A DNA stretch of 64,000 nt from Pseudobdellovibrionaceae bacterium (GTDB taxonomy: Bacteria > Bdellovibrionota > Bdellovibrionia > Bdellovibrionales > Bdellovibrionaceae): the NCBI GenBank assembly GCA_021731025.1, contig JAKFYD010000003.1, positions 30,138 to 94,137 on the forward strand, written 5' to 3'. Under the pieces are notes generated by a model. The model was not told the DNA's origin and did not search any database. It saw only the letters and a list, made by a program, of their open reading frames with translations. Numbering within the stretch: position 1 is the stretch's first letter; each line of letters begins with the position of its first letter. Both the position numbers and the translations under genes were made by a program. Below are positions 16,145 to 51,821 of this stretch, one piece after another.

Positions 16145-17737
16145 ATGCGATCTTTTGATCGACGCACGAAAATTATACTGATTTTTGCTTTCATCAGTTT
16201 GTGCGCGGTCGTCTATGGTCTCATCATTCCCAAAACAAAAAAAAATGATTCGTTAATCTCTTCAAGCGCGGGTAAAATTGTCAATCGCAGCAATGATGTT
16301 CGGCGAAAAAGTGAGCTCGATGTTTCATGGAATCAGATTCCTAACCAAGAAAAAGTTTTCAATCAAGACCACATTTTTACGGGCGAACGTTCTTCTGCCG
16401 AAATTGAATTAAAGACTGGTGCTAAAGTATCGATGAATTCGAATAGCCTCATCGTTCTCAAAGATCAAAAAGATCGCAGTGAAGTTAAACAATCCACCGG
16501 TGGATTTATCAGCCGATTACGTCGCGGCGAAAAATTTAATCTCGTTAAAAATAATAAAGTGATCCAACTGAGTGCCGGCAAAGAAGATACTACGATTCAG
16601 GTTAATCAAACGAATGAAGATTCTGATTTGGGAATCGTCGTTCTTTCGGGTCAGCTGCAAGTCGAAGATAACGGAAAAGTTCTCGAATTAAAGAAAAATG
16701 AAGAGCTTGTTTTTGCTAATGTTCCCACTCTAGCTCCGAGGATTATCAAATATCCTGTTCGACTGCTTGAGCCGAAATCTGATGAAACTGTCCACGTGGA
16801 TCAAGTAGTGCAAGCACAAAGTGTTAATCGGAAACTAAGTAGCGTTTCCGAGAATGAACGAAGTCCTGAGCCGCCACCGAATAGAAAAATCCTTCCGTCT
16901 TCGAGTGAATCAAAAACCGAAACGGCTGCCCCACAAAAAATAACAAATGAAAGCGTGAAAAATGATGAACCAACAATCAAGCGCGAAGCTGTTAGTTCGA
17001 AGGATCGCAAGATCATCGAACAACTTTTCTATTTTTGGTTGGGTTTCGGGGCGAACTTTATCAGTTCAGCGCAAACGGACACCGATGGCACTGACTTAAG
17101 TTTTCAAAGCACTCCCAGTGCGTCTCATTTTCTTAAGGTGGGTGGTTTTGTCTCGAAAGATATTCCAGGTTTGGAATTTTCTTACAAACAATCACCGGGA
17201 TCTGTAGCGAGCAGTTCTGATGTTTCGGTCATCAATGGCCAATACAGATGGGAAACTTTTGCGTCAGAGGCTCTGTTCTTAGTCAGAGAGGATGAATTTG
17301 ATCCTGCAAAACTAGATAAAACTGTGACAGCTCGCTTGGGAATTCAACATCACTTTATTCCCTATTTTGCGACCCAACCATCAGGTTCAGTTGATGTCAG
17401 GAGAAACTCTGTGACTAATGCCTCTTTAGGATTTGAGTTGGTTTTGGGTGCAAAACATAAAGTTCGCTATGAATTTTTAGGAAGATATCAGTATCCGATT
17501 GTATCTGCAGCGGATGGGGGAAATACCTTTTCTGTAACTCCCAAATTTGCCTTTGACGGATCAATTGGGATTGCAAGTAACCTGAACAAAAATATGATTT
17601 TAGGTGCTTATTGGTATGGGCAATGGAATCAATACGGTTTTTCTTATTACGATAAAGTTAACAGCACCTCAAATTCGGGACGCCAATCTTTGTTCTATAC
17701 AAACATGGAAATACGCCTGGGATATATTTTTGAATAG
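16145..17737 (+). CDS. FecR-domain membrane protein with C-terminal beta-barrel-like region
   Basis: A 530-residue envelope protein. An N-terminal membrane segment (about 9-30, KIILIFAFISLCAVVYGLI) is followed by a FecR-like domain (about 45-195) with DHIFTGERSSAEIELKTGAKVSM and GQLQVEDNGKVLELKKNEELVF. A disordered Ser/Glu/Lys linker spans about 215-290. The C-terminus of about 240 residues, starting FYFWLGFGANF, has alternating strands and ends in an aromatic pattern (EIRLGYIFE) typical of outer-membrane barrels. FecR plus barrel in one chain would have to span the periplasm. Function unknown. Confidence 0.75.
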   Translation: MRSFDRRTKIILIFAFISLCAVVYGLIIPKTKKNDSLISSSAGKIVNRSNDVRRKSELDVSWNQIPNQEKVFNQDHIFTGERSSAEIELKTGAKVSMNSNSLIVLKDQKDRSEVKQSTGGFISRLRRGEKFNLVKNNKVIQLSAGKEDTTIQVNQTNEDSDLGIVVLSGQLQVEDNGKVLELKKNEELVFANVPTLAPRIIKYPVRLLEPKSDETVHVDQVVQAQSVNRKLSSVSENERSPEPPPNRKILPSSSESKTETAAPQKITNESVKNDEPTIKREAVSSKDRKIIEQLFYFWLGFGANFISSAQTDTDGTDLSFQSTPSASHFLKVGGFVSKDIPGLEFSYKQSPGSVASSSDVSVINGQYRWETFASEALFLVREDEFDPAKLDKTVTARLGIQHHFIPYFATQPSGSVDVRRNSVTNASLGFELVLGAKHKVRYEFLGRYQYPIVSAADGGNTFSVTPKFAFDGSIGIASNLNKNMILGAYWYGQWNQYGFSYYDKVNSTSNSGRQSLFYTNMEIRLGYIFE

Positions 17738-38200: not shown

Positions 38201-39165
38201 AGCAAAGTTACATTTGCGCTCGTAAATCCCGTATAGTTGACTCCGTCAACGGCTGTTCCTGCAGTGGTCTTTACGCTGATTGTGCGATTGAAGGGGCAAC
38301 TGACCGCAGAAGTCAGAGTTAAATTTCCAACACTGCCTTCGTTCACCGAATTATTATTTAAGGTATAATTCATAGGGCTGCCTTCAGTGATGGAAGACAC
38401 GAAGGAAACAGAGCCTTGGGTCGATGCCGATGAAGTTGAAGTGAGTTGAGTCAAAAAAGTTTTAGGACTTTCACACAAAGCATTTGTATTCAATGAAGTT
38501 GTTAAACTTTGAGTGGTTGTACCAGCCGTAAATTTAATTACGCCCGAGCTTCCGGTGTAGTCGGAAGCCAAGGCGGTGCCTGGAGACATGGTGTAGTTGA
38601 AACTGAGATCTACATCAGCGGCTCGATCCAAAGTTAAATTTAAAACCGAAGTGCTGCCTTCACTCGCGGCGCTAGAGCTTCCACTCAGTGTAGGAAATGG
38701 ATCTTGATTCTTAACTAAAAATTCGATAGAGCTCGTCGACACTTCCGAACCCGAAATTGTAACGGCTAAGATTCGGTTTCGCGATTGGTAAATGCCATCA
38801 GCCAAAGTTAAAAATGAAATCTCCGCAGCTAAATTTCCTTTAGGGATCACGACACTGCTTGGAGCTCCGCTAAGATCAGTGCCTTCTAGAAAATTTCCCG
38901 AATACTGCAAAGTGATTTTAATGTCTTGGTCTTGCGCCTTTGCGAGAGTAATCTGAAATTGAACTGATTGGCCTTCATTAAGCTGTTCCGCCGTTGACGA
39001 GAGTTTCACCTGAACTTTTGTATCTTCAAAACCATACTCGCTTTGGCAGCCCAAAAGTAGGAGCTGGCTAAGAAACAAGATTAAAATGAATGAAGATTTC
39101 TCATATAGTTTCACGCAGTTAGTTATATCGGCGTTTAGACGGTCTAGCTTGAATAAGAGATGCAT
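35290..39165 (-). CDS. Lipoprotein with multiple Calx-beta domains and TolB-like propeller
   Basis: A 1291-residue surface protein. The lipobox is LLLLGC. Calx-beta type repeats fill about 50-800 (for example DDNLYEGNETLILSF and EGTAGTFTATLSQ), each with Gly/Asp-rich turns that can bind Ca2+. From about 830 to the end, repeats such as DLFAITPDNSKVVYAV and FKISLDSSKVAYVHNDN form a TolB/PD40-type propeller. The start is uncertain: the ATG at 39165 lies inside the operator-like palindrome, and GTG at 39114 also gives a good signal. It is divergent from the SUMF1-like pair. Confidence 0.83.
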   Translation of the reverse strand: MHLLFKLDRLNADITNCVKLYEKSSFILILFLSQLLLLGCQSEYGFEDTKVQVKLSSTAEQLNEGQSVQFQITLAKAQDQDIKITLQYSGNFLEGTDLSGAPSSVVIPKGNLAAEISFLTLADGIYQSRNRILAVTISGSEVSTSSIEFLVKNQDPFPTLSGSSSAASEGSTSVLNLTLDRAADVDLSFNYTMSPGTALASDYTGSSGVIKFTAGTTTQSLTTSLNTNALCESPKTFLTQLTSTSSASTQGSVSFVSSITEGSPMNYTLNNNSVNEGSVGNLTLTSAVSCPFNRTISVKTTAGTAVDGVNYTGFTSANVTLLSGNTTVSVPVTTLDDLQNGPDLTLSVSLVDEPSVVGTLTVVDTTPPPTLSWTVASQSISEGVGTASISWQLNSASARAISATVGFAGTATDGTDYTYSQTTISIPAGTTSGSFAVQVTDDNLYEGNETLILSFASLTNATAGTNPTNTVTITENDSLPQISVTGSASVLESQSANFLITLNRASVFNVDVNYSTSNGSATAGTDYTSVSGSVTFAPGETSKTVTVATSNNATVCEANKNFSLDISSPSGGTLGTSTYSMPLWDNDNPSITVNNVTVTEGTAGTFTATLSQSCNYNVSFTWQTQNNTATAGQDFTSATATATITAGSTTVNFSVATIDDVIDQGSRIANVIFSSGNRATVPASASTLTINDNDTAPTLSFSKSTDSVLETAGTATVNVVLSHITNRTVTATITTSGTATINQDYTLPTTAISIPAGSSSQTVSLSPTRDTTSDSGETVILTLGSVSGATLGATSVYTLTLEDDPNMGSLLVSSSDSTKLVYASSLSGGTANPLSVGGPLSSAGAILSRAATDTPQVGGFHLTGDQSLIIFSGNNQRVSGLDLFSVNFNGTGLTRLNASGWAATRKVQKFRAVGTGTKIIFLADQASLNGAYEMYAVNANGSSLISLGSALSGGKTIADFEATSDGNKIVFLSDLGTLGTMELYSIDSAGTSQVKLNANLSAGQDVDLFAITPDNSKVVYAVKGSGGDAVLYVVPIGGGSSTQLSRTISNRIVKSFKISLDSSKVAYVHNDNASSNFDLYVVGINGSSRTQVNQNLISGGAVTSYDFSPNSSKILYLGEAQNVGSAELYTVSTDGTNRYKLNNTLVSGGRIDQASFTPDGANVIYLGHQDSAATQELYAVSLIGTGRVKLNLTPVSGGQITQFAITSDSTKVIYMGDQNTSGIVELFSVNPTGLSRATLNSSLASGKKVDSFKILPNNSRVLYRANQDDVSRYDWYSVKLDGTGGLKTFSP

Positions 39166-39178
39166 CTCAGAACGAGAC
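39164..39178. promoter_or_regulatory. Candidate operator (A/G)TCTC-N5-GAGAC between divergent genes
   Basis: ATCTCAGAACGAGAC lies at the divergent start region of the Calx-beta gene (start 39165 or 39114) and the first SUMF1-like gene (39235). One mismatch from the GTCTC-N5-GAGAC pattern. Confidence 0.4.
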
Positions 39179-39234
39179 AGATCATTAAACTTTTTTTGAT
39201 AAACAGCCGAAAGGTCTGCTGGAGTAGGACGTTT

Positions 39235-41802
39235 ATGAGGTTGCGGTACTTAAACACCAAAATGAATTCTATTGGGCTTACCATAAGCTTGGTTTTTATT
39301 TTGTCAGGTTGTTTAGCTAAAGAGAGCATCGATGCCGTAGCGCCTTCAGATACCACCACAGCGGATCTTGGATTTAGCGGAGTTACAAGCGTTGAAAATG
39401 TGAGCGGCACCGTCATCAAAGTCAGTTGGAATTCAGCAACGAATGCGCAAACAACAAAATACAAAATTTATGAAGTGTTAGGCGATGGAACTTTAGTGGC
39501 GGTTGGTCAAGTGAGCGCGCCTGGAACATCTTTTTACCATTCGGGATTAACGGCAAACACTTTTCACACTTATCGTGTTAAGGCCGTTGATGCCAATAAC
39601 AGTATGGACACAAACATTGTAAACAAAACAGCGTTTACATATGCAGGTGCAACATCTGCTACTGCAACAGGGGCAACAACAGCTACTGTTAACTTCACAG
39701 CTGTTGGTGCGAGCCATAGTAATGCAAGAATTTATGCCACAGCTCGAGGAACCACGACACTTGTCGCAACAGCTTTGAATACCGCAACTTCGGCTAGCAT
39801 TACGGGACTTAATCCAGGAACGACTTATATTTTTACTGTTAAGGCTGTGGACTTTTCCAGCGTGGAAGATGGCAATGCGGTTACGGCTTCAGCGCAGACG
39901 ACTCCAACGTGGACAAGTAAATATCAAGGTCCGATGCTGGTGAAGGCTTTTGGTGACTCGCCGAATGCCCCTACGGGAACTCCGCAAACACGCCAGGTTA
40001 GCATCACATGGTTGCCTTTTGTTTCTTCATCATCAAGCACTTCGTACTCATTGGTTCGAACCGCTAAAGGTGAAGCCATAGACACAACCACCACAACGGT
40101 CTGCACCAGTGCAATTACAACTAGCTGTCAGGTCTGCTCTGCGACAGGGTCGGATGCGAAGACTTGCACTGACACCAATGTGGCTGCGCCGCCTGCAGCT
40201 TACGATTATGTTGTGACTCTAAACCCAAATTCTTGGCCCGAAGAAATTCCAAGCACGGGAAGTGATAGCGCTTACCGCATTACAGTGCAAATTCCGCCTG
40301 ACAATATGGTTCTTGTTCATCGTGACAGTGCTAACTATGAACTTTGCCAAAGTATGAACCGAACTAGTGATCCTTTAAATCATCAAAGATGCGCCATCAA
40401 CGGAGCTTCAATGATTGGAGCCACTCCATACAATATTGGACCAGGCAGGCCACCTCTGAATCTTTCCACAGCCTATTATGATTTTGGTTACAATATTTTC
40501 TTCGATCGTTGGGAAGCGGGTTGTAATTGGACTCCCCAAGCTCAAGGCGGAATGTGCGGGGCTGGAGCTACTGCAGGTAACTGTTATGATTCCACTACAC
40601 CAGCAAACACAATTGGGTCTGATGGAAATGTGTTTTACCGCACAGACAATGGAATTTGTTGGGTTAAACAAAGTGGAGCCTGGTTGCAGGCTAATACCTC
40701 GACAATAACTTCAGTTAACCGCGCTTTAATGTACACGAACAATCCCTCTACCACTTACCGTAAACCTGTCTTAGCAGGTCTCGACCAGAATCGAGCATGG
40801 GATACATGCCAATTAGCAGAAGACCTAAATTATGGTAAAAAACGCTTACCTCGCCAGCGCGAATGGAAAGCCGCAGCTGCTTGGGCTTATTTCCCGGGGG
40901 AACCCGGGGCATTATCTGATAGTGATATTGTGCTTATCGAGAATGGCAGTTCAGGAGCGACTACTCACACTACACTGGCCTATTGTAATTCCACTAGTCA
41001 TGCTGGAATGTCTGCGGGAGCCTTTAACACCACTGAATTAGGTGGCGATGTGGGCGATGCTGTTAGATCTTTTGTTTTAGGTAGCAATGGAACGAAAAAT
41101 TGCGTTTCCCGTTATGGTATTCAGGATATGCCAGGCAATGTCCATGAAATGACGACAGATGCCTACACGCGTGCCGCCGCCGCGGCCACAGGTGTTGGAA
41201 TACAAAGCCCATTAGATTCGGGAAATGGTTATGCTGCAGGATTTGATATGAATGGATTTAATTTTGATGGTGTAATGGCGCCAGCTGGCTTAGATCAAAC
41301 AGTTTGTGTCTATCATTCTGGTCTTGGTGCCGTAACAGATCCCCCTGGTGCAGGTATCAGTACCGTAGGGGCAGTTGCGTACAGCACTGCATCTACCTGT
41401 TATTATAAAAGAGATGCAACAACTTGGGTCAATTTTGCTTCAGCTACTGCGGCAGAAAAGGTTGCTATGCATGGAATTTCGCTCTGGACAATTTCATCTG
41501 CTACTGTTGGCGGAACTACCCAAGCTACAGGGTACGGGGCGGTCTATTTTAATTGGGCATTGGGTATGCCCTTACTCACCTCTAATAATTCTAACGCCGT
41601 ATATATCCCTAACATAAATACCAAATTCCATAATGATCAAATCGTGCCTATATTTCCTACAATACTTTTTAATCGGATTTCGATGTTAGGCGGTTCTTGG
41701 GGCACGGGCAATCCGGCTGGGCGCTGGTATTCCTACTGGGCGTTCCAGGCAACTTCGACCGGTGCAAGTGCTGGATTTCGTTGTGTCTTGCCGGCTGAAT
41801 GA
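39235..41802 (+). CDS. Lipoprotein with FN3 domains and SUMF1/FGE-like domain (copy 1)
   Basis: An earlier ATG at 39160 is possible, but AGGA precedes the ATG at 39235, which gives 855 residues and a lipobox (FILSGC). Two FN3-like domains (about 45-220) precede a linker and a C-terminal sulfatase-modifying-factor/formylglycine-generating-like domain. Its marks are GKKRLPRQREWKAAAAW, VSRYGIQDMPGNVHEMT, GGSWGTGNPAGRWYS and the end GFRCV. Such domains may be catalytic or sugar/protein-binding; the two FGE active-site cysteines cannot be confirmed. A tandem paralogue follows 18 bases later. Confidence 0.8.
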   Translation: MRLRYLNTKMNSIGLTISLVFILSGCLAKESIDAVAPSDTTTADLGFSGVTSVENVSGTVIKVSWNSATNAQTTKYKIYEVLGDGTLVAVGQVSAPGTSFYHSGLTANTFHTYRVKAVDANNSMDTNIVNKTAFTYAGATSATATGATTATVNFTAVGASHSNARIYATARGTTTLVATALNTATSASITGLNPGTTYIFTVKAVDFSSVEDGNAVTASAQTTPTWTSKYQGPMLVKAFGDSPNAPTGTPQTRQVSITWLPFVSSSSSTSYSLVRTAKGEAIDTTTTTVCTSAITTSCQVCSATGSDAKTCTDTNVAAPPAAYDYVVTLNPNSWPEEIPSTGSDSAYRITVQIPPDNMVLVHRDSANYELCQSMNRTSDPLNHQRCAINGASMIGATPYNIGPGRPPLNLSTAYYDFGYNIFFDRWEAGCNWTPQAQGGMCGAGATAGNCYDSTTPANTIGSDGNVFYRTDNGICWVKQSGAWLQANTSTITSVNRALMYTNNPSTTYRKPVLAGLDQNRAWDTCQLAEDLNYGKKRLPRQREWKAAAAWAYFPGEPGALSDSDIVLIENGSSGATTHTTLAYCNSTSHAGMSAGAFNTTELGGDVGDAVRSFVLGSNGTKNCVSRYGIQDMPGNVHEMTTDAYTRAAAAATGVGIQSPLDSGNGYAAGFDMNGFNFDGVMAPAGLDQTVCVYHSGLGAVTDPPGAGISTVGAVAYSTASTCYYKRDATTWVNFASATAAEKVAMHGISLWTISSATVGGTTQATGYGAVYFNWALGMPLLTSNNSNAVYIPNINTKFHNDQIVPIFPTILFNRISMLGGSWGTGNPAGRWYSYWAFQATSTGASAGFRCVLPAE

Positions 41803-41820
41803 TTTCTAGGAGGAAGTCGT

Positions 41821-44400
41821 ATGAATGTTTTGAATAAAAAAGATATGAAACAAACTATTATTTGTTTATATTATTTTATTCTTTTTTCATTTTCTCTTTC
41901 TTTAGGCGGTTGTCTTTCTCAGGAAAGCAGTACTCCTTCCGGAGGTGCAGTTTCTACGACGGCTGATTTAGGATTTTCAGGAATTACCTCCGCCGAAAAT
42001 CAAAACGGTTCTACGGTGAAAATATCTTGGACTGCAGCCACGAATTCTAGTGTGACGGGATACCGTATTTATGAAGTGTTGCCGGATAGCAGTCTTGTAG
42101 CTGTTGGGCAAACAACTTCGGCGGTGACGTTTTATTATCATCTCGGTTTGGCAGCAAACACGTCTCATACTTACCGAGTGCGGGCTATCAATGCAAGTAA
42201 TCAAACAGATACCAATACCGTTGAAAAAACAGCTTACACTTATTCAGGAATTACTTCTGCCACCGCAACGGGGACAACGACGGCAACTGTCAGTTTTCCG
42301 GCTACGGGTTCAAACAAAAGTGGTGTGCGTGTCTATGCAACGGCTCGGGGAACAACAAGTCTTGTGGCCACAGGCTTAAACACTTCCACTTCAGCAAATA
42401 TCACAGGATTGAAAGCGGGCACGACTTATACTTTTTCAGTGAAGTCCTATGATTTTTCTAATGCCGAGGACACGAATATTACAGAAGCTTCGGTTCAAAC
42501 AACGCCCACTTGGATCGGGCGTTATCAAGGGCCAATTTTAGTTAAGGCTTATGGTGATGCGCCGGGAGCTCCTTCAGGCACTCCCCAAACAAAACAAGTG
42601 AGCGTCACTTGGGCGCCATTCACTTCGGCCGTTGGCACAACTGCTTACACTCTTGTGCGAGTTTTAAGAGGGAATTCGATTGATCTGACAACGACGACCT
42701 CCTGTACGAGCGCGACCGATACCAGCTGTCGTGTCTGTACGGCAACCGGGTCTACCGCTCAAACTTGTATTGATACTAATGTCGGTGCTCCACCCAAAGT
42801 TTACGATTACATGGTTACGTTAAATACTAATTCTTGGCCTGAAGAAGCGCCAGCGAGCAACAATGAATATCGCATCACCGTGCCTATTCCTCCAGATAAT
42901 ATGGTCCTCGTGCATCGCGATAGTGCGAATTATGAAGCCTGCACTGTAATGGGGCGAACACCTGATCCTTTGAATCATCAAAGGTGCGCGATCAGTGGAG
43001 CTTCAATGATTGCAGCGACTCCCTACAATACTGGACCCAATAAGCCACCGCTGAATTTGCCAACAGGATATTATGATTTCGGTTACAATGTTTTCTTTGA
43101 TCGCTGGGAAGCTGGCTGCAATTGGACTCCGCAAGCCAGTGGAGGAATGTGCGGCGCGGGTGCCACTGCAGGAAATTGTTTTGGTACAGGCACTCCAGCA
43201 AATACGATCGGTGTTGATGGCAATATTTTTTACAGTACTGATGCAAGCAATTGTTCCATTAAAGTAGCAGGAGCTTGGGTAATAACTAATGCAAGCACAT
43301 TATCTTCAGCTTCTCGAGCTGCTACATACACAATACAGCCTTCAACAAGCTATCGCCGACCTCCGTTAGTGGCAATGACACAACCACGAGCTTGGGAAAC
43401 CTGCCAGGCTATTGAAGATGCGAATTATGGAAAAAAACGATTACCACGTAATCGCGAATGGAGAGCGGCGGCCGCATGGCAAACTTTAACCGGTGAGCCC
43501 GAAGCCATAACTGAAGGAGCTGCTGTCACTTTAGAAAATGGTAATTCAGGCGCCACTACTCATACGACTTTGGGCTACTGCAATACCAGTAACCATGTAA
43601 GTATAGCAGCTGCTGCATTTAATACCACGGAACTTGCTGGAGATACTGGGGACGCGGTGAGATCTTTCGTTATTGGTAGTAGTGGGACTCGCAATTGCGT
43701 TTCGCGATACGGGGTTCAAGACATGGTTGGGAACGTTTTGGAGTGGACTTCTGACAATTTGATGTTGGTCGATTATGCAAACCGCATTTATAATGGAATC
43801 CAAAGTTTGAGTGATAATGGAAACGGTTATTCCGCAGGCTTCGATATGAATGGTTTTAACTTTGATAATACGCTTGGACCAAATGGTATGGATTCAGTTA
43901 ATACCTGTAATGCCAATACAGGTTTTGCTGCAACGACTGATCCCCCTGGTGCCGGTGGCGGTATCGGGACTGTAGCAAAGAGCACCACTAATGTTTGTTA
44001 TAGCCGGAGAGACGCTTCAACCTGGGTAACTGGTGCGTCAGCTACCGCAGCCGAATTAACTACGATGCATGCCTTATCCAGCTGGATGTACCAGATTGCA
44101 ACCTTGGGCGGAACGACTGCTGCTACTGGGTGGGGGGCTGCCTATTTTAATTACGCTATGGGATTACCAATGATGTCCTCGGACAATTCGAACAGTCCAA
44201 CAGTTAGTACATTAAGTACTAAATTACATGGAGACTATATTTTCGTAAACTTTCATCAGTCAATTAGCGTTCGATATCTTGCAAGCGGTGGCAACTGGGG
44301 TAGTGGAACAACAGCTGGGCGTTGGTATTCCTGGTGGATTAGTTCATCAACCTCAACTAGCTCTTCGACTGGTATTCGCTGTGTTTTGCCTGCAGAATAG
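41821..44400 (+). CDS. Lipoprotein with FN3 domains and SUMF1/FGE-like domain (copy 2)
   Basis: An 859-residue tandem paralogue of the previous gene, with the same order: lipobox (SLSLGGC), two FN3-like units, linker, SUMF1-like domain. Long identical stretches remain, such as FDRWEAGCNWTPQA and MCGAGATAGNC, while the tip region before the C-terminus (about 780-840) differs strongly. AGGAGGAAG lies just before the ATG. The pair is probably one operon and arose by tandem duplication followed by divergence at the exposed face. Confidence 0.82.
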   Translation: MNVLNKKDMKQTIICLYYFILFSFSLSLGGCLSQESSTPSGGAVSTTADLGFSGITSAENQNGSTVKISWTAATNSSVTGYRIYEVLPDSSLVAVGQTTSAVTFYYHLGLAANTSHTYRVRAINASNQTDTNTVEKTAYTYSGITSATATGTTTATVSFPATGSNKSGVRVYATARGTTSLVATGLNTSTSANITGLKAGTTYTFSVKSYDFSNAEDTNITEASVQTTPTWIGRYQGPILVKAYGDAPGAPSGTPQTKQVSVTWAPFTSAVGTTAYTLVRVLRGNSIDLTTTTSCTSATDTSCRVCTATGSTAQTCIDTNVGAPPKVYDYMVTLNTNSWPEEAPASNNEYRITVPIPPDNMVLVHRDSANYEACTVMGRTPDPLNHQRCAISGASMIAATPYNTGPNKPPLNLPTGYYDFGYNVFFDRWEAGCNWTPQASGGMCGAGATAGNCFGTGTPANTIGVDGNIFYSTDASNCSIKVAGAWVITNASTLSSASRAATYTIQPSTSYRRPPLVAMTQPRAWETCQAIEDANYGKKRLPRNREWRAAAAWQTLTGEPEAITEGAAVTLENGNSGATTHTTLGYCNTSNHVSIAAAAFNTTELAGDTGDAVRSFVIGSSGTRNCVSRYGVQDMVGNVLEWTSDNLMLVDYANRIYNGIQSLSDNGNGYSAGFDMNGFNFDNTLGPNGMDSVNTCNANTGFAATTDPPGAGGGIGTVAKSTTNVCYSRRDASTWVTGASATAAELTTMHALSSWMYQIATLGGTTAATGWGAAYFNYAMGLPMMSSDNSNSPTVSTLSTKLHGDYIFVNFHQSISVRYLASGGNWGSGTTAGRWYSWWISSSTSTSSSTGIRCVLPAE

Positions 44401-44482
44401 CTATAGGTAAGAGCTCAAGTCTTTTACGGGCCTAAAGCCTGATATCCCCAATAATAAATTTCAAAAAATGAATTGGATTAAC

Positions 44483-44535
44483 AAGGTCCAGTTGATTATT
44501 CAGCTGGTCCTTCCGAATACTTCCTAAGAGGAAGT
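44483..44535 (+). promoter_or_regulatory. Two hairpins in the leader of the motor operon
   Basis: The first hairpin pairs 44483-44491 with 44504-44512 and is extended inwards by three more pairs (one T/T mismatch, loop ATTATT). The second, ACTTCCT AAG AGGAAGT (44519-44535), ends 4 bases before the ribosome site AGGAG (44540-44544) of the GTG start at 44549. No T-run follows, so these are not a standard terminator. Control of translation is possible. Confidence 0.4.
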
Positions 44536-44548
44536 CCTCAGGAGTTAC

Positions 44549-46426
44549 GTGAACTTAATTTCGAAGATACTCTTTTTTTGTTTAGTTCTGCTTGTTGAAG
44601 TATCACAAGTCAGTGCTGCTCCACGCGCAAAATCTTCGGCGAAATCGGATCAAGAAAACGAAATCAATCGTGCCGAAATTGTCGAGTATCGATCCAAGTT
44701 GGAAGAAGTCATTGCTGAAAAATATCGTCGCCGCATTTCTACTCGTATTGAAGATGATGCTTTCAATGTCGGAACACAAGTTGTTATTGAACTTGTTAAA
44801 GATGAGAAAAATAATCCCGTTGCAAAACAAGAAGAATCCAGTTTGCCTTCGGATATCACTTTGGGGATCCTGGAAAACTACACGCTTCCAGAATCTACTT
44901 TGACTCCTGCTGCGCGACCTCAGCTAAGAATTAAAAAAGTTGAGATCTTAGTGGGCTTGCACCCGAAATTAGGTAAAGACTACAAAGCAAAATTCAGTAC
45001 TTGGTTAAAAGCTAGCATTAAAGCTGAATTTCAAAATTTAGGTTCGGCGACCATCACTGATCTTGTTGAAAAACCGAAGGTCATCGAGAAAAAAGAACCC
45101 GAGCAAGCGCGCCCACTGAACTGGGAAGAAAAATTTGGCTACTTCCAAAATTTAATTGGCTTTATCGTGCTGGCTTTCTTCTTGGTGTTTGGAATGATTA
45201 TCGCGAAGCGAATGCCTTCGAAGGACACTCAAGAACAACTTTCTGTGGCTCTTAGAATCCAAGAAATGAAAAATTCGCAATTGCAATTGGGTAGTCAAAA
45301 ACCGGCCGCTGCATTGGGTGCGCCTGGTGAAAAGAATAAAAATGAACTTCAGCTCAGTGCGAATTTGCTCTTTGATAATTATCGCGATCATCAACGAAAA
45401 GTGGCTTTCATTGCTTTGTCTTCTCCTGAAAAAATAGATCAGGCTTTGGATCTTTGGTTTGATGAGAGCGAAGAGGGCCGTAAAAAAATCGCCAGTCTCG
45501 TGGACAGTGTGCTGACCCAGTACGGGATCAATCAGTTGAACGAAGGAGTGAATCCCGCCGAGATGGAATGGCACATGCCCGAAAAAATTCGTAACGACAA
45601 AGATCTGCCCGGAGTTTTCAGAGCCTTTGCGACTTTGTCCCTTGTCGACAAAACCAGTATTCTCGAAAAAACTTATTGGGATTTATTGTCTTTGAAAACT
45701 CTCAGCGACAAACTGATGCGCCCAAGATTTTCAAGCATTTCTCAATTGCCGGCGGCAAAAATTCAGAAAATTTTAAGCGGTCAGGACGCGAAAGTAAAAT
45801 CTTTGACTCTCTTGCATTTACCTTTAGAAAAACTAAATCAGGTTATGAGTGAGATGACTTTTGATGAAAAGAAAACGACGGTGATCCAAGCCTTTTCTTT
45901 GACTCGCGTCCGTGAAAAAGAATTGGAACTCCTTGATGAATCTTTGCGTTTCAATGTTAAGAAAGATGAATCCACTCAAGAAGGCACCATTGAGGTTCAA
46001 TCCCTAATTCCAAATATGTTGATGTCACTGAAACCAACGGAAGAGTTGACTCTTCTGAAGGACATCGTTTCCAAGCTGCCCGATCAGGGCGAGTATTTAA
46101 AACAGAATTATCCCAGCTTGGCCTTTGTGATGGATTGGCCGGAAGATAAGTTCAAATTGCTCGCGGGAAATGCGACGACTCAAGAGGCCCTAGCCCTAAT
46201 CCAAATGATGCCTGACATTTCAACGAAGGTTCTTGCGGCTTTGCCTTCACGAACCAAAATGATTGTTCAAGATGAAATTGGGAAAAGACAAATTGATTCT
46301 GCCGAATTGGATCAGCACTTGGAAGGATTGAAATATCGACTATTTAAATTAGTTAATGACGGACAAATTTCACTGGTCCAGATCTTTAAATCCAGCGCGA
46401 ATGCATCGCCCGGGAAGGCAGCCTAA
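44549..46426 (+). CDS. Membrane-anchored FliF/FliG-like protein partnered with MotAB
   Basis: A 625-residue protein. A signal-like segment (about 1-23) leads into about 175 periplasmic residues reminiscent of the FliF C-terminal periplasmic part (YRSKLEEVIAEKY, then TQVVIELVKDE). One membrane helix follows at 201-219 (NLIGFIVLAFFLVFGMIIA). The cytoplasmic part has a FliG-middle-like stretch (about 398-470, LPAAKIQKILS to LLDESLRF) and a FliG-C-like stretch (about 520-612, LAFVMDWPEDKFKLL, ALALIQMMP, LEGLKYRLFKLVNDGQI). The EHPQ motif is missing. Weak similarity, my assignment. The GTG start follows AGGAG, and motA starts 2 bases after the stop. Confidence 0.62.
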   Translation: MNLISKILFFCLVLLVEVSQVSAAPRAKSSAKSDQENEINRAEIVEYRSKLEEVIAEKYRRRISTRIEDDAFNVGTQVVIELVKDEKNNPVAKQEESSLPSDITLGILENYTLPESTLTPAARPQLRIKKVEILVGLHPKLGKDYKAKFSTWLKASIKAEFQNLGSATITDLVEKPKVIEKKEPEQARPLNWEEKFGYFQNLIGFIVLAFFLVFGMIIAKRMPSKDTQEQLSVALRIQEMKNSQLQLGSQKPAAALGAPGEKNKNELQLSANLLFDNYRDHQRKVAFIALSSPEKIDQALDLWFDESEEGRKKIASLVDSVLTQYGINQLNEGVNPAEMEWHMPEKIRNDKDLPGVFRAFATLSLVDKTSILEKTYWDLLSLKTLSDKLMRPRFSSISQLPAAKIQKILSGQDAKVKSLTLLHLPLEKLNQVMSEMTFDEKKTTVIQAFSLTRVREKELELLDESLRFNVKKDESTQEGTIEVQSLIPNMLMSLKPTEELTLLKDIVSKLPDQGEYLKQNYPSLAFVMDWPEDKFKLLAGNATTQEALALIQMMPDISTKVLAALPSRTKMIVQDEIGKRQIDSAELDQHLEGLKYRLFKLVNDGQISLVQIFKSSANASPGKAA

Positions 46427-46428
46427 TT

Positions 46429-47223
46429 ATGAATATATCAGTCATCTCTGGAATTATTGTTGGCATCATTGTCGTTATCGGTGGGGTTTTTACTTCCACA
46501 GAAAACTGGAGAATATTTTTTGATGTTCATGCCTTGTTGGTTGTGGTTGGTGGAACCTTAGCAGCAACCTTAATCAGCTTTCCGATTCCTCAACTTTTAA
46601 AAGTTACAAAAATTTTATGGAGCAAAATCATCGGGAACCACTCGGCTCCGCACATTACCGTCATTTCTGAAATTGTGAAATTGGCAGCAGGTCATCGTGA
46701 ATCTCCTGAATTTTTACAGTCCAATGTGGGAACAATCTCGAATCCCTTTTTAAAAGAAGCCGTCCAGCTGGAACTAGAGGGTGGAATTCCCTTTCATAAA
46801 ATCGATAGCATTCTTAAAAAACGCGCCGAAGTGCATTTTGTCAGATACCAAGATGAAGCTCATATTTTTAAAACCATCGCACGGTTTCCACCGGCATTTG
46901 GTTTGTTGGGCGCAGTTTTAGGGATGATCGCTCTGATGAGTGGTTTGGGTTCGCCCGATTCATTCAAAACCATCGGTCCCGCTATGGCTATGGCTATGGT
47001 GGCAACCATGTACGGAATCGCGATCGCTAATTTTATATTTGTTCCTCTCGGTGAAAATTTATCGAAGCTCAGTAAAGAAGATCATTTGATGAGAAATATC
47101 GTCATCGATGCCATCAAATTACTGCGAGAAAAAGAACATCCTTTAGTGGTGGAAGAGTATTTGAAAAGTTATCTGCTGACGGGTGAGCGCGAAAAATTAA
47201 CGGATAAAAAAGAGGCCTCCTAA
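46429..47223 (+). CDS. motA: MotA-type stator subunit
   Basis: A 264-residue proton- or sodium-channel subunit of a MotAB motor. Four membrane helices are visible (about 5-22, 34-52, 150-172 and 185-210). The loop between helices 2 and 3 is cytoplasmic and charged. Family marks: VVGGTLAATLISFP, PPAFGLLGAVLGMIALM with the conserved prolines, and GPAMAMAMVATMYGIAIAN. It lies between the FliF/FliG-like gene (2 bases) and motB (2 bases), so all three are co-translated. No other flagellar gene is in this window. Confidence 0.92.
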   Translation: MNISVISGIIVGIIVVIGGVFTSTENWRIFFDVHALLVVVGGTLAATLISFPIPQLLKVTKILWSKIIGNHSAPHITVISEIVKLAAGHRESPEFLQSNVGTISNPFLKEAVQLELEGGIPFHKIDSILKKRAEVHFVRYQDEAHIFKTIARFPPAFGLLGAVLGMIALMSGLGSPDSFKTIGPAMAMAMVATMYGIAIANFIFVPLGENLSKLSKEDHLMRNIVIDAIKLLREKEHPLVVEEYLKSYLLTGEREKLTDKKEAS

Positions 47224-47225
47224 GT

Positions 47226-48005
47226 ATGGCAGCTCCCGTTTTTAAACTTCCTGAACGAAAAGCACCTTGGTCGACCCCGGAACAAAAGCCCGAGGTCAAA
47301 GCAGAACAGTCTTACATCGTCGACGAAATGCTTCTGCAAAATTTGGGGGCCCATCAAGCCACTGATGACGGGGAGAGCATTTGGTTACTTTCGTATTCGG
47401 ATCTGATGACTTTGCTTTTTGCTTTTTTCGTCATGTTGATGAGCTTTTCACGAATTGATGTCGAAGCTTTTGAAAAAACTCGCAAAGAAACCACGGAGCT
47501 TTTTGGCGGTGAATACCAAAAGCCCCACAAAGAAATGCTCACTCAACTGAAAAAAGAAGTTACCGTCGAAGGACTTAATGACAAAGCCGTCTTTGATGAA
47601 TTGGAAAAAGGGGTTGCTCTGACTTTTCGTGGATCTGCCTTTTTTGATGCGGGCTCTGCTTTGATTAAGCCCGAAGCTTTGCAACTTTTAAAGAAAGTCA
47701 TTCCCGTTGTTAAAAAGCAGCAGCGGAAGTACAGCGTGGTGGTTGAAGGTCATACGGATGACAATCCCATTCGCACGGATCACTTTCCCAGCAACTGGGA
47801 ACTCTCAAGTCAGCGAGCTTCAGCGGTCCTACGACTTTTCGAAGAATCTGGTTTTGATCGCAGCTCTTTAAGATCGATTGGTTTTGCTGACACCTTACCC
47901 ATCGTCCCGAACCGCGATCCCGAAGGTAAAATTATCGTCGAGAATCAAAATCAAAATCGACGGGTCGTCATTAAACTGATTCGTTCGAATCAACTTAAAA
48001 ACTAA
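47226..48005 (+). CDS. motB: MotB-type stator subunit with OmpA-like peptidoglycan-binding domain
   Basis: A 259-residue partner of MotA. A single membrane helix (about 56-75) starts with the ion-binding Asp59 in LLSYSDLMTLLFAFFVMLMSF. After a plug/linker region comes an OmpA/MotB domain (about 120-255) with SAFFDAGSALIKPEAL, VVVEGHTDDNPIRTDHFPSNWELSSQRA and IVENQNQNRRVVI, which binds peptidoglycan. The N-terminus is longer (about 55 residues before the helix) than in E. coli MotB. The stop is 7 bases before the convergent FecR-like gene. Confidence 0.93.
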   Translation: MAAPVFKLPERKAPWSTPEQKPEVKAEQSYIVDEMLLQNLGAHQATDDGESIWLLSYSDLMTLLFAFFVMLMSFSRIDVEAFEKTRKETTELFGGEYQKPHKEMLTQLKKEVTVEGLNDKAVFDELEKGVALTFRGSAFFDAGSALIKPEALQLLKKVIPVVKKQQRKYSVVVEGHTDDNPIRTDHFPSNWELSSQRASAVLRLFEESGFDRSSLRSIGFADTLPIVPNRDPEGKIIVENQNQNRRVVIKLIRSNQLKN

Positions 48006-48012
48006 AATTTTT

Positions 48013-49104
48013 TTATTCGCCTAAAACTTCAATCGGCTGAGAATTGTCGATGGCTTTTTCCAAAGCCTGTTCGGAAAAAGGCTGAATGCTGAAAGCCGAT
48101 TTGTATTCAAACATTTGGCTGGTGAAACTCCAGGAATACTGTCCTGGCTGCACTTCGTCGCTCTCGATGCTAACGACACTGGATTCATTGCGTTTCCATT
48201 TGAAGCTTTTGAATTCGTGATTATCGCGGTACAGGGTCATTTGGCATTGATCCGGGCAAACAACTTTTGCTCCGATGAAAATGGGCTGGGCGTTCTTTAA
48301 CAAAAATACCGTACCTTCTGAGGGAGTAGGCAGATCATAATTGACGGTCGGAGCTTCTTCTGTGGCTTCGGTGACTTTGGGGGCAGTCTGTGGTTCTTCG
48401 AAGGAAGTGTCTTTCATTTTTGCTTTTGTTTTAGCTTCTTCTTTTAAGCCAGCCAAGGATTTCGTCTCTTGAGCAAAACTGGTGATTTGAATCCCGGCAC
48501 TCATGTCATTCTTAATGAGGTAGCTCCCTTTACGAATTAAGACCTCTTCAATGCGCGGGCCCTTCTTGATAAGAACAACCTGGTCATTGGTGAATTGCGT
48601 TTTTATCTCGCCTTTGGAAAGACGGATGAGGGGCTTGCCATCAAACCAAGTGATTCTCACTAAAGACCGCGGCTCAACGGTGATTTTAACATCTCTATTA
48701 ATCTCAACTTCAATGTTGGAATCTTTTTCTGTTAACAAAATATCTGAGTTAAATATTTTGTTCTGATGGGACAGGGGAAGCCAGAGGGAATCAAGATGAG
48801 TTTTCCGAATGGAGCTCCCTGTGGTTGTAGAAACGTGACCGATGGGATTAAGCCCCGTGGTGATGGGCTCAAGAAAGCGCAACCAGAATGTTGTGCTGAT
48901 TGTGGTGTAAATCGAAAAGACAAAGAGCCCCAAAAAAAAGACATACAAAGTGCGGGTCCAAATCAGATTTCGATAATCAGGATCACGAAAGAAGCGAAGG
49001 CCTTGACCAAAGTTCAGGAGAGAAAAAAGAAGACCGCTCTTGGTCACGGGCGAATTTTTTAGTGGGACCGATTTTGTTTTATCCGAGGTGACAGGTATAG
49101 CCAT
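48013..49104 (-). CDS. FecR-like membrane protein
   Basis: A 363-residue protein with one N-terminal membrane helix (about 50-72, TLYVFFLGLFVFSIYTTIS), so most of it is periplasmic. A FecR-like domain covers about 100-210 (HQNKIFNSDILLTEKDSNIEVEINRDVKITVEP and GKPLIRLSKGEIKTQF). A charged linker and a beta domain (about 270-340) with CPDQC follow. It lies between MotB (converging) and the PP2C gene (diverging, 40 bases away). FecR proteins often relay signals across the periplasm. Role here unknown. Confidence 0.75.
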   Translation of the reverse strand: MAIPVTSDKTKSVPLKNSPVTKSGLLFSLLNFGQGLRFFRDPDYRNLIWTRTLYVFFLGLFVFSIYTTISTTFWLRFLEPITTGLNPIGHVSTTTGSSIRKTHLDSLWLPLSHQNKIFNSDILLTEKDSNIEVEINRDVKITVEPRSLVRITWFDGKPLIRLSKGEIKTQFTNDQVVLIKKGPRIEEVLIRKGSYLIKNDMSAGIQITSFAQETKSLAGLKEEAKTKAKMKDTSFEEPQTAPKVTEATEEAPTVNYDLPTPSEGTVFLLKNAQPIFIGAKVVCPDQCQMTLYRDNHEFKSFKWKRNESSVVSIESDEVQPGQYSWSFTSQMFEYKSAFSIQPFSEQALEKAIDNSQPIEVLGE

Positions 49105-49144
49105 ACTCTCTATACTTACTTCATAAGTTCATCCAGGAGAAGCT

Positions 49145-50638
49145 TTGAGTTTAAGAATCAAATTTTTAGGACTGCTCGTTTTAATCCCTTCGATGTGTCT
49201 TGCGGTGTTTTTGTATTTTGCCATTAAGACCTTCGTCGATGATAAAAGAACGTCTCTGTTGGAAGAGCATTTTAATCTGCTGAATGCGGCGAGTTTGTTT
49301 CTTTCCAGCAGTGATGGAAATGAATTTCAAACAAAAGTTCAAAGCCTTATCAAACAAGAGGGCTTCGAAAGCATTCTTGTGATTAATCCTTCAGGCAAAA
49401 TCATTGCGGCGGGTGATGCCGGTCGGTTGCAGAAAGCTTTACCTGAAATATTAGGCAACGAGATTTTTGAAAAACTGATCGGACAAACCGCTGTCGAAGG
49501 AAGCTTCGAAGCTCGGGATATCAGTAAAGAGGAAAGATTTGTTTCATTTATGAAAGTTCCCATCGGGACTGCCGATTCGGCCATCTTACTGATGCACAAA
49601 TTAAAAAGCAGCTCTCTGCGTGCCAGCACTTTGTTCTTTTTAAAGTCCGGAAGTATCTTTGTCGCTCTGATATCTTTCGCTGTCCTGGTCAGTTTGCTTT
49701 TTTCCGACAAACTCTCCGAGGGAATTCAGCAGTTGTCACGGGCTATGGAAGCCTTTGGAAAAGACAACACCATAACGCCATTGCCAGCTCCCTCGAATGA
49801 CGAAGTCGGTGTGATGACTCGCCAATTTCAATCCATGCGCGTGCAAATTAAATCTTTAATCGAATCTCAAAAAGAAAAAGTAAAAATCGAAACGGAAATG
49901 AATTTGGCGGGAGAACTGCAAAAAAGATTTTTTCCGAACAGTCTTTTTAAAGTTAAAGGTTGCGAGTTCGCTGGATTTTTTGAACCTGCTGCCAGCGCCG
50001 GCGGGGACTGGTGGTTTTATTTTGTTAAGGGCAATGAGCTTGTTTTAACTATCGGTGATGTGACAGGACATGGACTGAACTCGGCAATGATCACGGCGGT
50101 TTCACGTTCTGCGTTCAGTTTGATTGAGGAGTTTTTTGTCAGCCCTAGTGAAAGCTTAAGACTTCTGAACCGCGCTATCTATGATGCTGCCAAGGGCGAG
50201 CTTTGCATGACTTGCATCGTGAGTGCTCTGAATTTGGAAACGGGTGTGATGCGATATGCAGCTGCCAGTCATGAAGCACCGATCGTTATTCCTCCTCAAG
50301 AAGTTGTAAAGCTCAAAGACTTTCAGTTTTTGAACAGAGTCAACGGTCCACGCTTGGGTGAAAAAGAAAACGCTAAGTATGACGATGCTCAGTTTCAGCT
50401 GCAGAATAATGAATCTCTGTTGTTTTACACAGACGGCCTTACAGATCTGCCTTCAGCATCGGGCAAGGTCTTAAGTGAAAATCAATTGCTGCGTTCACTG
50501 GGCAAAGAGCATTCGCAGAATCTTTCGGCCGAGCAATTGTTAGAAAAGGTAAAATCAATCGCTTTCAATCACAGGTTAACGACAGACCTGGCGGACGACC
50601 TGTCATTCTTTTTTATCAAATGGAGCAAATCGGTATGA
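49145..50638 (+). CDS. HAMP-domain PP2C/SpoIIE-type phosphatase
   Basis: A 497-residue membrane phosphatase. Two membrane helices (about 5-27 and 164-185) flank a periplasmic sensor domain. A HAMP domain follows (about 186-240), then a coiled coil and a SpoIIE/PP2C domain (about 265-495) with ASAGGDWWFYFVKGNELVL, IGDVTGHGLNSAMIT and LLFYTDGLTDL, which carry the metal-binding Asp residues. The start is TTG at 49145, preceded by AGGAG. It heads a three-gene operon with overlapping ATGA junctions. Typical targets are anti-anti-sigma or STAS proteins, none of which is in the window. Confidence 0.88.
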   Translation: MSLRIKFLGLLVLIPSMCLAVFLYFAIKTFVDDKRTSLLEEHFNLLNAASLFLSSSDGNEFQTKVQSLIKQEGFESILVINPSGKIIAAGDAGRLQKALPEILGNEIFEKLIGQTAVEGSFEARDISKEERFVSFMKVPIGTADSAILLMHKLKSSSLRASTLFFLKSGSIFVALISFAVLVSLLFSDKLSEGIQQLSRAMEAFGKDNTITPLPAPSNDEVGVMTRQFQSMRVQIKSLIESQKEKVKIETEMNLAGELQKRFFPNSLFKVKGCEFAGFFEPAASAGGDWWFYFVKGNELVLTIGDVTGHGLNSAMITAVSRSAFSLIEEFFVSPSESLRLLNRAIYDAAKGELCMTCIVSALNLETGVMRYAAASHEAPIVIPPQEVVKLKDFQFLNRVNGPRLGEKENAKYDDAQFQLQNNESLLFYTDGLTDLPSASGKVLSENQLLRSLGKEHSQNLSAEQLLEKVKSIAFNHRLTTDLADDLSFFFIKWSKSV

Positions 50639-51231
50639 AACATTTAGGCGGCGTGCTTGTTTTTACTTTGCTGGCAATGGGTTGTTCTTCCTCTTTGAAA
50701 GTGCAAAGTGAGCCAGCAGGCGTTGAAGTTTTTATTTCTCAACAAGAATCAAAAGAGAAAAAGTCTTTCGGTAAAACTCCGGTCGAAATCACCTACAATG
50801 ATCTTCGAGAAAAATTAGGAAGCAGTCTTTCCCCAAGTGATATGTTGGTCGTTAGCTTAGAAAGCCGTGAATTTGAACCCGAAAAAGTTTATGTGCCGCC
50901 ATCGAGTTTTGGAGTTACCACCACTCACGTGCAAGTGAGGTTAACTCCGAAGAAGGAAGTCAGCAATGCGGCTGGTATTTTACAGCGTTTGCACAACGCT
51001 CAAAAATTTGCCCAGGCCGGTCAGTTCGAGCGCGCTCACGTTGAAACCGACAAAGTTCTGGAGATTGATCCCAAGTTCACCCGCGCTCTTTCGATGAAGG
51101 GATCAATTTCTTATTTGCAAAAAAATTACGATGAAGCTTTGAAGTGGTTCGAAAAAGCATTGGCCGTTGATGCTTCTTTTGAAGAGGCCGTAAGAATGAT
51201 CGCCAAAATCAAGCAAGAGAAAAGCAAATGA
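50635..51231 (+). CDS. PEGA-TPR lipoprotein
   Basis: I start at ATG 50635, which overlaps the phosphatase stop (ATGA). It gives 198 residues with a lipobox (LAMGC). A PEGA domain (about 18-100, SEPAGVEVFISQQ, FGKTPVEITY) is followed by two TPR-like repeats (about 115-195, ALSMKGSISYLQKNYDEALKWF, then AFEKALA-type helices). Such lipoproteins are scaffolds at the envelope. It is coupled to the phosphatase before it and to the barrel gene after it (ATGA overlap). Confidence 0.82.
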   Translation: MKHLGGVLVFTLLAMGCSSSLKVQSEPAGVEVFISQQESKEKKSFGKTPVEITYNDLREKLGSSLSPSDMLVVSLESREFEPEKVYVPPSSFGVTTTHVQVRLTPKKEVSNAAGILQRLHNAQKFAQAGQFERAHVETDKVLEIDPKFTRALSMKGSISYLQKNYDEALKWFEKALAVDASFEEAVRMIAKIKQEKSK

Positions 51232-51821
51232 AGTGCAAATCTTTGATCTTAATTTCTATTTGTCTTCTGTCGACTCGCTGGGTTTTAGCGCGCACTGATA
51301 TTTCACGATTTTCAGGTCTCGCTGGATTTGCCATGTCTGCCAGCAAGTCGGCTGAAGAAGCAGGAACTCTGCGAAATGAAGGACCTCTAGGCTTTGCTTT
51401 CAGCATTGATCACAGCTGGCGTGGTCCTTATTTTTTATTTGCAGAACATATGAGGAGCATGAGCGGAGCTTCAACAGCCGTAGGTCTTACGGGCGCCGGG
51501 ATTAAATATTATCCCTGGGTTTCACCCTTGCATTTCAAAGCTCGTAACGCTGATAAGATTGAATCGGTTTCTTTATTTTTCAGTGGATATTCTTTTTACA
51601 TGGGCGGTTCTTTTGGCTTTGCCCAGTCTTCGATTTTGTCTTCAGGTGATAAACTAGCGTCTTTAGCAGCTGGGCTCTACGTCAACGCAAAGGCCGGAGT
51701 CGATTACCCCATGTCACAGATCTGGGGATTAAGAGGCGAATTCAATTACGCCATGACCATCGTAGGTTCAGGGGCGATTCAGCATTTGAATTTATTCGGC
51801 GGCGTTTTCTTTGACCTTTAA
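51228..51821 (+). CDS. Small outer-membrane-barrel-like exported protein
   Basis: A 197-residue protein with a short signal peptide (about 1-20, ISICLLSTRWVLA). The rest has alternating hydrophobic strands with Gly and aromatic residues (SGYSFYMGGSFGFAQS, GVDYPMSQIWGLRGEFNYAM) and ends HLNLFGGVFFDL, whose final aromatic strand suggests BamA-dependent insertion. It is the last gene of the phosphatase operon, starting inside the stop of the PEGA gene (ATGA). It could be the outer-membrane partner of the neighbouring envelope machine. Function unknown. Confidence 0.68.
   Translation: MKCKSLILISICLLSTRWVLARTDISRFSGLAGFAMSASKSAEEAGTLRNEGPLGFAFSIDHSWRGPYFLFAEHMRSMSGASTAVGLTGAGIKYYPWVSPLHFKARNADKIESVSLFFSGYSFYMGGSFGFAQSSILSSGDKLASLAAGLYVNAKAGVDYPMSQIWGLRGEFNYAMTIVGSGAIQHLNLFGGVFFDL

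Follow-up and report, generated by a model that had tools for sequence, protein, structure and literature searches.

A FliF-FliG fusion protein encoded with its own MotA and MotB: a candidate switch-less rotary motor in Bdellovibrionota

The flagellar rotor, which is paired with a MotAB or PomAB stator, includes FliF, carrying RBM1, RBM2 and two membrane helices besides its ring-building domain RBM3, and FliG, whose EHPQ motif binds FliM. Engineered or strain-specific fusions of FliF to FliG belong to flagellar motors and reportedly use nearly full-length FliF. Here we describe a locus in a 64,000-nucleotide stretch of a Pseudobdellovibrionaceae genome (assembly GCA_021731025.1, contig JAKFYD010000003.1, positions 30,138 to 94,137; hereafter the window, to which all coordinates refer) where FliF-like and FliG-like parts are joined in one protein of 625 amino acids (aa), the fusion protein, whose gene is followed by those of MotA and MotB. 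As in the flagellar rotor, an RBM3-like fold and a membrane helix precede FliG in N-M-C order with the acidic pair of the torque domain, and the stator is likewise of flagellar type, with a PomA-like MotA and a MotB bearing a plug, the channel-aspartate motif and an OmpA domain. Unlike the flagellar motor, this system has both rotor parts in a single protein with room for one ring domain and no EHPQ, has lost the MotA E98 contact, is not encoded with export or rod genes, and is kept in two genomes (G249 and G251) that yielded no FliM, FlhA or canonical FliG. It differs from the known FliF-FliG fusions in that its FliF part comprises one RBM-like domain and one helix and its stator is probably dedicated.

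Other machines share single features with this locus. SctJ and SpoIIIAG display an RBM-like fold, chains of the needle complex (2y9j_Y) and of SpoIIIAG (5wc3_0) being among the weak structure matches of the fusion protein, and are not known to have a FliG-like part or a MotAB stator. The AglRQS-Glt gliding machinery of Myxococcus, which has outer-membrane and periplasmic partners, is also powered by an ion-driven motor of the wider MotA/TolQ superfamily. To our knowledge, no FliG-type rotor belongs to GldLM, the gliding motor of the type 9 secretion system of Bacteroidota. A 2026 review presents GldLM as a rotary 5:2 machine coupled to outer-membrane proteins and not homologous to MotAB, and calls the gliding machinery of Bdellovibrio unidentified (PMC13104615). 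An earlier candidate for the latter is the Agl/Glt locus Bd0828-0838, described in a text that mentions FliG and FliF 0 times (PMC3169522). No description of a fusion-MotAB module was found in open-licence PMC papers, preprints and subscription papers lying outside this search. We judge it fairly probable that the locus encodes a self-contained, switch-less rotary motor, likely moving surface proteins in gliding or prey contact.

A membrane-anchored protein with FliF-like and FliG-like parts

The fusion gene (44549..46426, plus strand, as are all features below unless stated) starts with GTG and encodes a 625-aa protein, labelled A, with a signal-peptide-like N-terminus, a periplasmic RBM3-like domain, one membrane helix and a FliG-like cytoplasmic part. 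It is followed by MotA (46429..47223, 264 aa) and MotB (47226..48005, 259 aa), with spacers of 2 bases between fusion and MotA genes and between MotA and MotB genes, so that the open reading frame (ORF) coordinates agree with the arrangement given in a first-pass annotation of the sequence. The periplasmic segment and single membrane helix proposed there are also recovered by hydropathy, as an N-terminal hydrophobic stretch (1-25) and one later helix at residues 195-224 (45131..45220) in place of FliF TM2. The RBM3-like ring-building domain occupies residues 37-175 (44657..45073) with an alpha-beta-insert-beta-alpha-beta topology, and beyond the helix residues 271-309 (45359..45475) align, weakly and in colinear order, with the C-terminal tail of FliF, W303 being conserved in 36/36 rows of the main family, to which the window protein belongs. 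The FliG middle domain (residues 392-471, 45722..45961) carries QDAK, a motif that is not conserved, at the EHPQ position (residues 412-415, 45782..45793), and the FliG C-terminal (torque) domain (residues 521-607, 46109..46369) contains D575/E576 (46271..46276), the counterpart of FliG D288/D289.

The fusion protein is homologous to FliG. A family profile built from 38 members aligned with 19 canonical FliG of the phylum over 281 columns (E 1.1e-11). With its C-terminal part alone, E was 1.8e-12 and the score 92.2; reversing the FliG alignment gave E 0.14, and the highest score in 40 column shuffles was 25.1. On whole genomes the family profile also finds canonical FliG; 18 such matches were fetched (E 1.7e-13 to 1.7e-8) and all 18/18 loci contain an ORF similar to the FliG of the window's own genome. 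The AlphaFold model of the window protein matches FliF RBM3 at residues 37-175 and FliG at 308-609, residues 523-608 matching 8ucs_H, a FliG in complex with MotAB. In addition, a Bdellovibrio bacteriovorus relative scores above the Pfam cut-offs for FliG_C and FliG_M and matches FliF RBM3 at 2.2 A. Profile alignment, structure match and, for P0024, Pfam thus support the FliG middle and C-terminal domains, and the earlier claim of a membrane-anchored FliF/FliG-like rotor protein finds backing in the AlphaFold matches and in the profile match to canonical FliG (E 1e-11). As to the FliF part, RBM3 is supported by structure matches and by a sequence match seen in the second subfamily only (E 3.9e-5), and the full-length alignment is colinear (E 0.004), its periplasmic, membrane-helix and tail segments succeeding one another as in FliF. 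The RBM1/RBM2/two-helix plan of FliF is absent from the window protein, whose periplasmic part measures ~170 aa and which, past its signal-peptide-like start, has a single helix. Neither the fusion protein nor its profile had a sequence match in the PDB, and the protein had none in NCBIfam. Identity as an MgtE magnesium channel was rejected, MgtE_N-like matches being found and no MgtE channel or CBS domain match being listed.

Fusion proteins vary at their C-terminus and in length. The window protein ends in -AA (46418-46423), as do many main-family relatives despite variable preceding residues, and a C-terminal A occurs in 40/56 rows longer than 550 aa, counting both subfamilies; it may be a degradation tag or a docking signal. 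Versions of 760-830 aa are found in some lineages (L110-L113, L116, L181, L183-L188); in L110-L113 and L116, with the membrane helix shifted to around residue 350-380, the periplasmic part has roughly double the length and perhaps more ring-building domains. One genome (G191) has two fusion-gene copies with MotA, on contigs C140 and C18 (L043, L045).

Stator and motor residues

The two genes that follow the fusion gene encode a stator of flagellar type. The MotA ORF matches Pfam MotA_ExbB with 74 bits (cut-off 22.9) and is closest to PomA models in NCBIfam, scoring 153.9 bits to PomA, below the model cut-off of 341, and 23.3 to TolQ; by these PomA and TolQ scores it does not look like an AglR/TolQ-type motor subunit. 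The MotB ORF matches MotB_plug (52.9 bits) and OmpA (65.7 bits), and its channel-aspartate motif, YSDLMT (D59) in the window, is present in 37/38 MotB. To assess the gene association, 61 loci were read: the window, 40 of the main family and 20 of the second subfamily, the latter hand-picked from the wider phylum search. Within 6 kb of the fusion gene, MotA was present in 40, MotB in 38 and both in 38, which extends to relatives the gene-MotA-MotB neighbourhood of the window; of the 19 loci whose contigs extend 6 kb or more in both directions, 13 had MotA and MotB. Since the 3.49-Mb genome of the window holds three MotB_plug genes, the two outside the window being on contigs C65 and C5, a MotB beside the fusion gene by chance is expected, by our estimate, at about 1% of random loci. 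Given 20 homologues, relatives across the phylum and both Mot genes within 6 kb in 38/61 loci, the association is not a matter of chance.

In a maximum-likelihood tree of 69 MotA, from which module MotA shorter than 200 aa (L045, L047, L103) were dropped, all 26 main-family module MotA, 22 of them encoded within 6 kb of the fusion gene and 4 taken from the 29-kb blocks described below, group in a single clade with support 100/99. This clade holds 29 rows, of which the remaining three come from genomes that carry the fusion gene elsewhere (G350, G210, G227). The flagellar-type MotA (C65) and the C5-type MotA of the window's genome lie outside this clade on long branches, and the second-subfamily MotA lie near it but do not form a single clade. 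The main-family stator is therefore predicted to be, most likely, dedicated to the fusion rotor. For two genomes with a main-family fusion (G306, G179) no module-clade MotA was present among the MotB loci fetched, which are a part of all their loci.

Motor residues were counted in 36 main-family, 20 second-subfamily and 19 canonical FliG rows, after dropping the near-identical L045 and rows shorter than 480 aa. EHPQ is present in 19/19 canonical FliG and in 0/36 main-family and 0/20 second-subfamily rows (0/56 in all). The first-pass annotation had placed the stator-facing acidic pair at E532/D533 (PEDK); in our alignment the counterpart of D288/D289 falls instead at D575/E576, where both residues are acidic in 33/36 main-family rows and in 16/19 canonical FliG. 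In PMC12505986, stator contacts are described between MotA R90 and FliG D288/D289 and between MotA E98 and FliG R281. The window MotA retains R90 and has a non-acidic residue at the E98 position, and R90 is kept in 24/26 main-family MotA. To judge from these aligned residues, one of the two flagellar rotor-stator contacts is kept, the other being largely gone from rotor and stator alike.

Several observations weigh against a rotary motor. At the E98 position MotA is acidic in 0/26 main-family and 0/15 second-subfamily sequences and basic in 17/26 of the former, E being found there in both other flagellar-type MotA of the window's genome; R281 is matched by R or K in 16/36 main-family rows (R568 in the window) as against 19/19 canonical FliG. 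Among second-subfamily rows, 3/20 have both residues of the acidic pair and 18/20 at least one, and 7/15 MotA of this subfamily keep R90. As regards the fold, the AlphaFold models are monomers of low pTM (0.31 and 0.32) that do not fix the arrangement of domains, and the window protein by itself passes no Pfam cut-off, its FliG_M match being sub-threshold (E 0.018). In the two main-family members with Pfam coordinates, the FliG_C match falls on the middle-domain region (384-450 and 400-478). Two solved chains of the FliG C-domain, 8ucs_H and 1qc7_B, fit the B. bacteriovorus model best at 342-430 and not at its C-terminus; because armadillo-like modules resemble each other, single-domain matches cannot fix domain identity. 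By sequence, the signal of the main family with FliF is weak, at a score of 35.9 next to 31.7 for the reversed control and 25.1 for the best of 40 shuffles.

The shifting of these matches between similar modules, the lost contact and the MgtE_N matches in 13/21 homologues would all fit a static docking ring, in which the FliG-like part would do no more than recruit or gate MotAB, or act, like MgtE_N domains, as a sensor of load or magnesium, while the stator pulls in the manner of TolQR/ExbBD and no rotor turns. We hold such a ring to be very improbable: the main family keeps the acidic pair and MotA R90, the torque domain of the window model resembles FliG bound to MotAB, and MotA is PomA-like rather than TolQ-like.

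Distribution, flagellum-less genomes and Bdellovibrio bacteriovorus

The window belongs to contig C8 of a genome that is 99.95% complete and has a canonical flagellum encoded off this contig, with fliF/fliG on C18, in a cluster of two rod proteins, fliF, fliG and a fliI-like ATPase, FliM on C35 and FlhA on C55. No flagellar gene was recognised among the scanned neighbours of the fusion gene (39160-51821), as had been noticed before. The protein database contains 20 homologues of the fusion protein besides itself, to which a wider alignment adds only two. With close relatives as query, 41/368 genomes of the phylum match, the 41st (G091) weakly; the wider alignment matches 133/368, a figure that includes canonical FliGs and is not a count of module carriers. 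A tblastn search of the fusion protein against plasmids gave no match.

FliM was found in 318/368 genomes of the phylum, leaving 50 FliM-negative. In two of the latter, G249 (97% complete) and G251 (99%), FliM, FlhA and canonical FliG were not found, all being found in flagellated relatives searched alongside, and both genomes keep the fusion, MotA and MotB genes on the same contig within a 29-kb block. A third, G293 (89% complete), has a fusion-like gene beside MotA and MotB; FlhA was not found in it and it is absent from the FliM-positive list. MotB was searched in 15 of the 50 FliM-negative genomes as a control. Among FliM-negative members of family f9, MotB was present in 2/2 genomes with the fusion versus 0/13 without it; these 13, whose completeness ranges from 80 to 99% (90% or more in 7), also have no FlhA, and their fusion-minus status comes from the wider-alignment search only, in which G250 was a borderline match (E 7.9e-4). 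Fusion and stator genes are thus inherited together. A further query alignment (A3) gave no match in 16 flagellum-poor genomes, which is not evidence of absence, as G293 has a fusion-like gene by alignment A2. G267, which is FliM-negative with MotB and FlhA present, is a flagellated genome with an incomplete assembly, and the fusion carrier G149 (88% complete) has FlhA and FliG and no FliM.

These genomes bear on the possibility that the locus is a flagellar-motor accessory, an extra FliF/FliG-like ring with an alternative stator at the flagellar base that would boost or tune swimming. Such a role agrees with the presence of FliM in 37/40 main-family carriers, which are thus mostly flagellated, a fact that also counts against an independent motor. 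On the same side of the balance, the flagellum-less comparison comprises 2 (or 3) module-bearing genomes, and one genome (G205, 83% complete) has two MotB (contigs C22 and C15; L167, L170) where FliM, FlhA and the fusion were not detected, its MotA falling with other-stator clades in the tree. In G133, likely B. bacteriovorus HD100 (L097, L135), a pair that is likely MotAB2 lies ~3-4 kb from the FliF-FliG fusion gene with a TPR lipoprotein between them; we infer its identity from gene order and position (MotB at 2.919 Mb). The stator next to the fusion gene thus seems to be one of the three motAB pairs of this species, all of which reportedly contribute to flagellar motility (Morehouse et al. 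2011); this further burdens a separate motor. PMC11323537 and PMC12827227 likewise describe the B. bacteriovorus motAB pairs as flagellar stators. On the other hand, FliL-Bd1076 bound MotB3 and not MotB2 according to PMC11323537, a pattern that fits a separate role for MotAB2, and the likely MotAB2 pair may not be an ordinary flagellar stator. An accessory would also be hard to reconcile with G249 and G251, which keep fusion, MotAB and the block without the three flagellar proteins, with the absence of the FliM-binding motif from 56/56 rows, and with a main-family MotA clade apart from the other MotA of the window's genome. We consider it decidedly unlikely, and favour a motor independent of the flagellum.

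Neighbouring genes and the proposed machine

Downstream of MotB, and on the minus strand, lies c8 (48013..49104), encoding a 363-aa protein with no Pfam match that is beside the fusion gene in 7 of the clustered loci. The window encodes a second, 530-aa c8-related protein (E 3e-8) at 16145-17737, about 27 kb from the fusion gene. Back on the plus strand follow c7 (49145..50638), a SpoIIE phosphatase with a sub-threshold HAMP match and a candidate regulator; c2 (50620..51231), a TPR lipoprotein with the lipobox LAMGC, whose N-terminal part we read as PEGA-like, a label of our own; and c1 (51228..51821), a likely outer-membrane barrel of ~200 aa with no Pfam match itself, one relative of which reaches the OMP_b-brl cut-off (28.7 bits). 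Upstream, c9 (39160..41802) and its paralogue (41821..44400), the latter directly preceding the fusion gene, stand in tandem and encode putative lipoproteins that carry fn3 and FGE-sulfatase-like domains; c9 relatives are near the fusion gene in other loci too. Within 6 kb, c2 was found in 54, c1 in 45 and c7 in 17 of the 61 loci, and c2 and c1 in 18 each of the 19 loci with long flanks. Eighteen more hand-picked loci with weaker matches yielded a fusion-like ORF in 17, MotA and MotB in 13, MotB alone in 1 and c2 in 16; L194 has no fusion-like ORF among its selected ORFs.

In 23/61 loci MotA and MotB are not both within 6 kb, some being at contig ends and some having the genes ~25 kb away, which is a further point against a self-contained unit. 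A block of ~29 kb was present in 4/4 such loci read further, which were picked for a MotB on the same contig and are not a random sample. Its order is c1, fusion, c2, a ~2300-aa fn3 protein (c5), a ~1100-aa FG-GAP protein, a ~1946-aa protein related to c9, c13, a LysM protein (c12), a long coiled-coil-like protein, a GYF protein, MotA and MotB. The fusion-MotAB system is thus larger and more widespread than the first-pass annotation described. A simple lipobox pattern, giving lower bounds as many ORFs are cut or have too early a start, was found in 4/4 of the ~1946-aa, 1/4 of the ~1100-aa, 4/7 of the c9, 17/30 of the c2, 4/16 of the c5, 1/6 of the c12, 0/5 of the c13 and 2/37 of the c1 proteins. 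In part, these patterns mark the giant proteins as putative lipoproteins. The giant fn3, FG-GAP and FGE-sulfatase-like proteins of the block could also mean that the motor powers export or surface placement of these proteins and not locomotion, which we regard as unlikely: the block proteins that were scanned included no recognisable secretion pore, ATPase or chaperone, and the giant proteins were not seen in the fetched stretches around several core modules.

Returning to the preferred motor for surface proteins, RBM3-like domains would assemble into a periplasmic ring, with FliG-like parts lining its cytoplasmic edge. MotAB, held to peptidoglycan through MotB, would use ion flow so that MotA R90 pushes D575/E576. 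As the FliM-binding motif is gone, we propose that there is no FliM/FliN switch ring and no CheY-controlled reversal; the motor would be one-way, or controlled otherwise, for instance via the linked SpoIIE phosphatase. Room for only one ring domain and one membrane helix would leave no export apparatus inside the ring. Crossing the periplasm, torque may reach the TPR lipoprotein, the outer-membrane barrel and, in loci that have them, the LysM and giant fn3/FG-GAP proteins, the end effect most likely being the movement of adhesive surface proteins for gliding or prey contact. Of this picture, the ring, its rotation, the lack of switching, the coupling to the outer membrane and the surface function are inferences.

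The chances appear to us evenly balanced that this is a new kind of rotary machine in which a FliF::FliG rotor made of one protein works with a MotAB of its own and neither export apparatus nor switch, turning surface adhesins of Bdellovibrionota as their missing motor for gliding or prey handling; its occurrence in flagellum-less species would then show that the rotor-stator half of the flagellum can persist as an independent evolutionary unit. By analogy with the injectisome, it is likely a different machine from the flagellum with homologous parts. A FliG-type rotor in genomes without detected FliM, FlhA and canonical FliG would be a flagellar torque unit used elsewhere, the injectisome being the parallel case for the export unit. 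The order in which rotor and stator on the one hand and the export apparatus on the other arose becomes phylogenetically testable. The module is also a concrete, testable candidate for the gliding machinery of Bdellovibrio, whose likely B. bacteriovorus version adjoins a MotAB pair hitherto counted as flagellar. If true, a one-protein rotor would offer a simpler object for the study of MotAB torque.

Other FliG_C-like genes occur as well. The window's genome has two besides those described, one of which was read and is not a FliF-FliG fusion. The product of L087:2460-3233 (G000, contig C4), 257 aa long and coiled-coil-like by eye, scores 37.7 bits over a FliG_C-like part and has a neighbour that is VWA-like by eye. 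Finally, G227 and G230 contain ORFs of 233-255 aa matching FliG_C.

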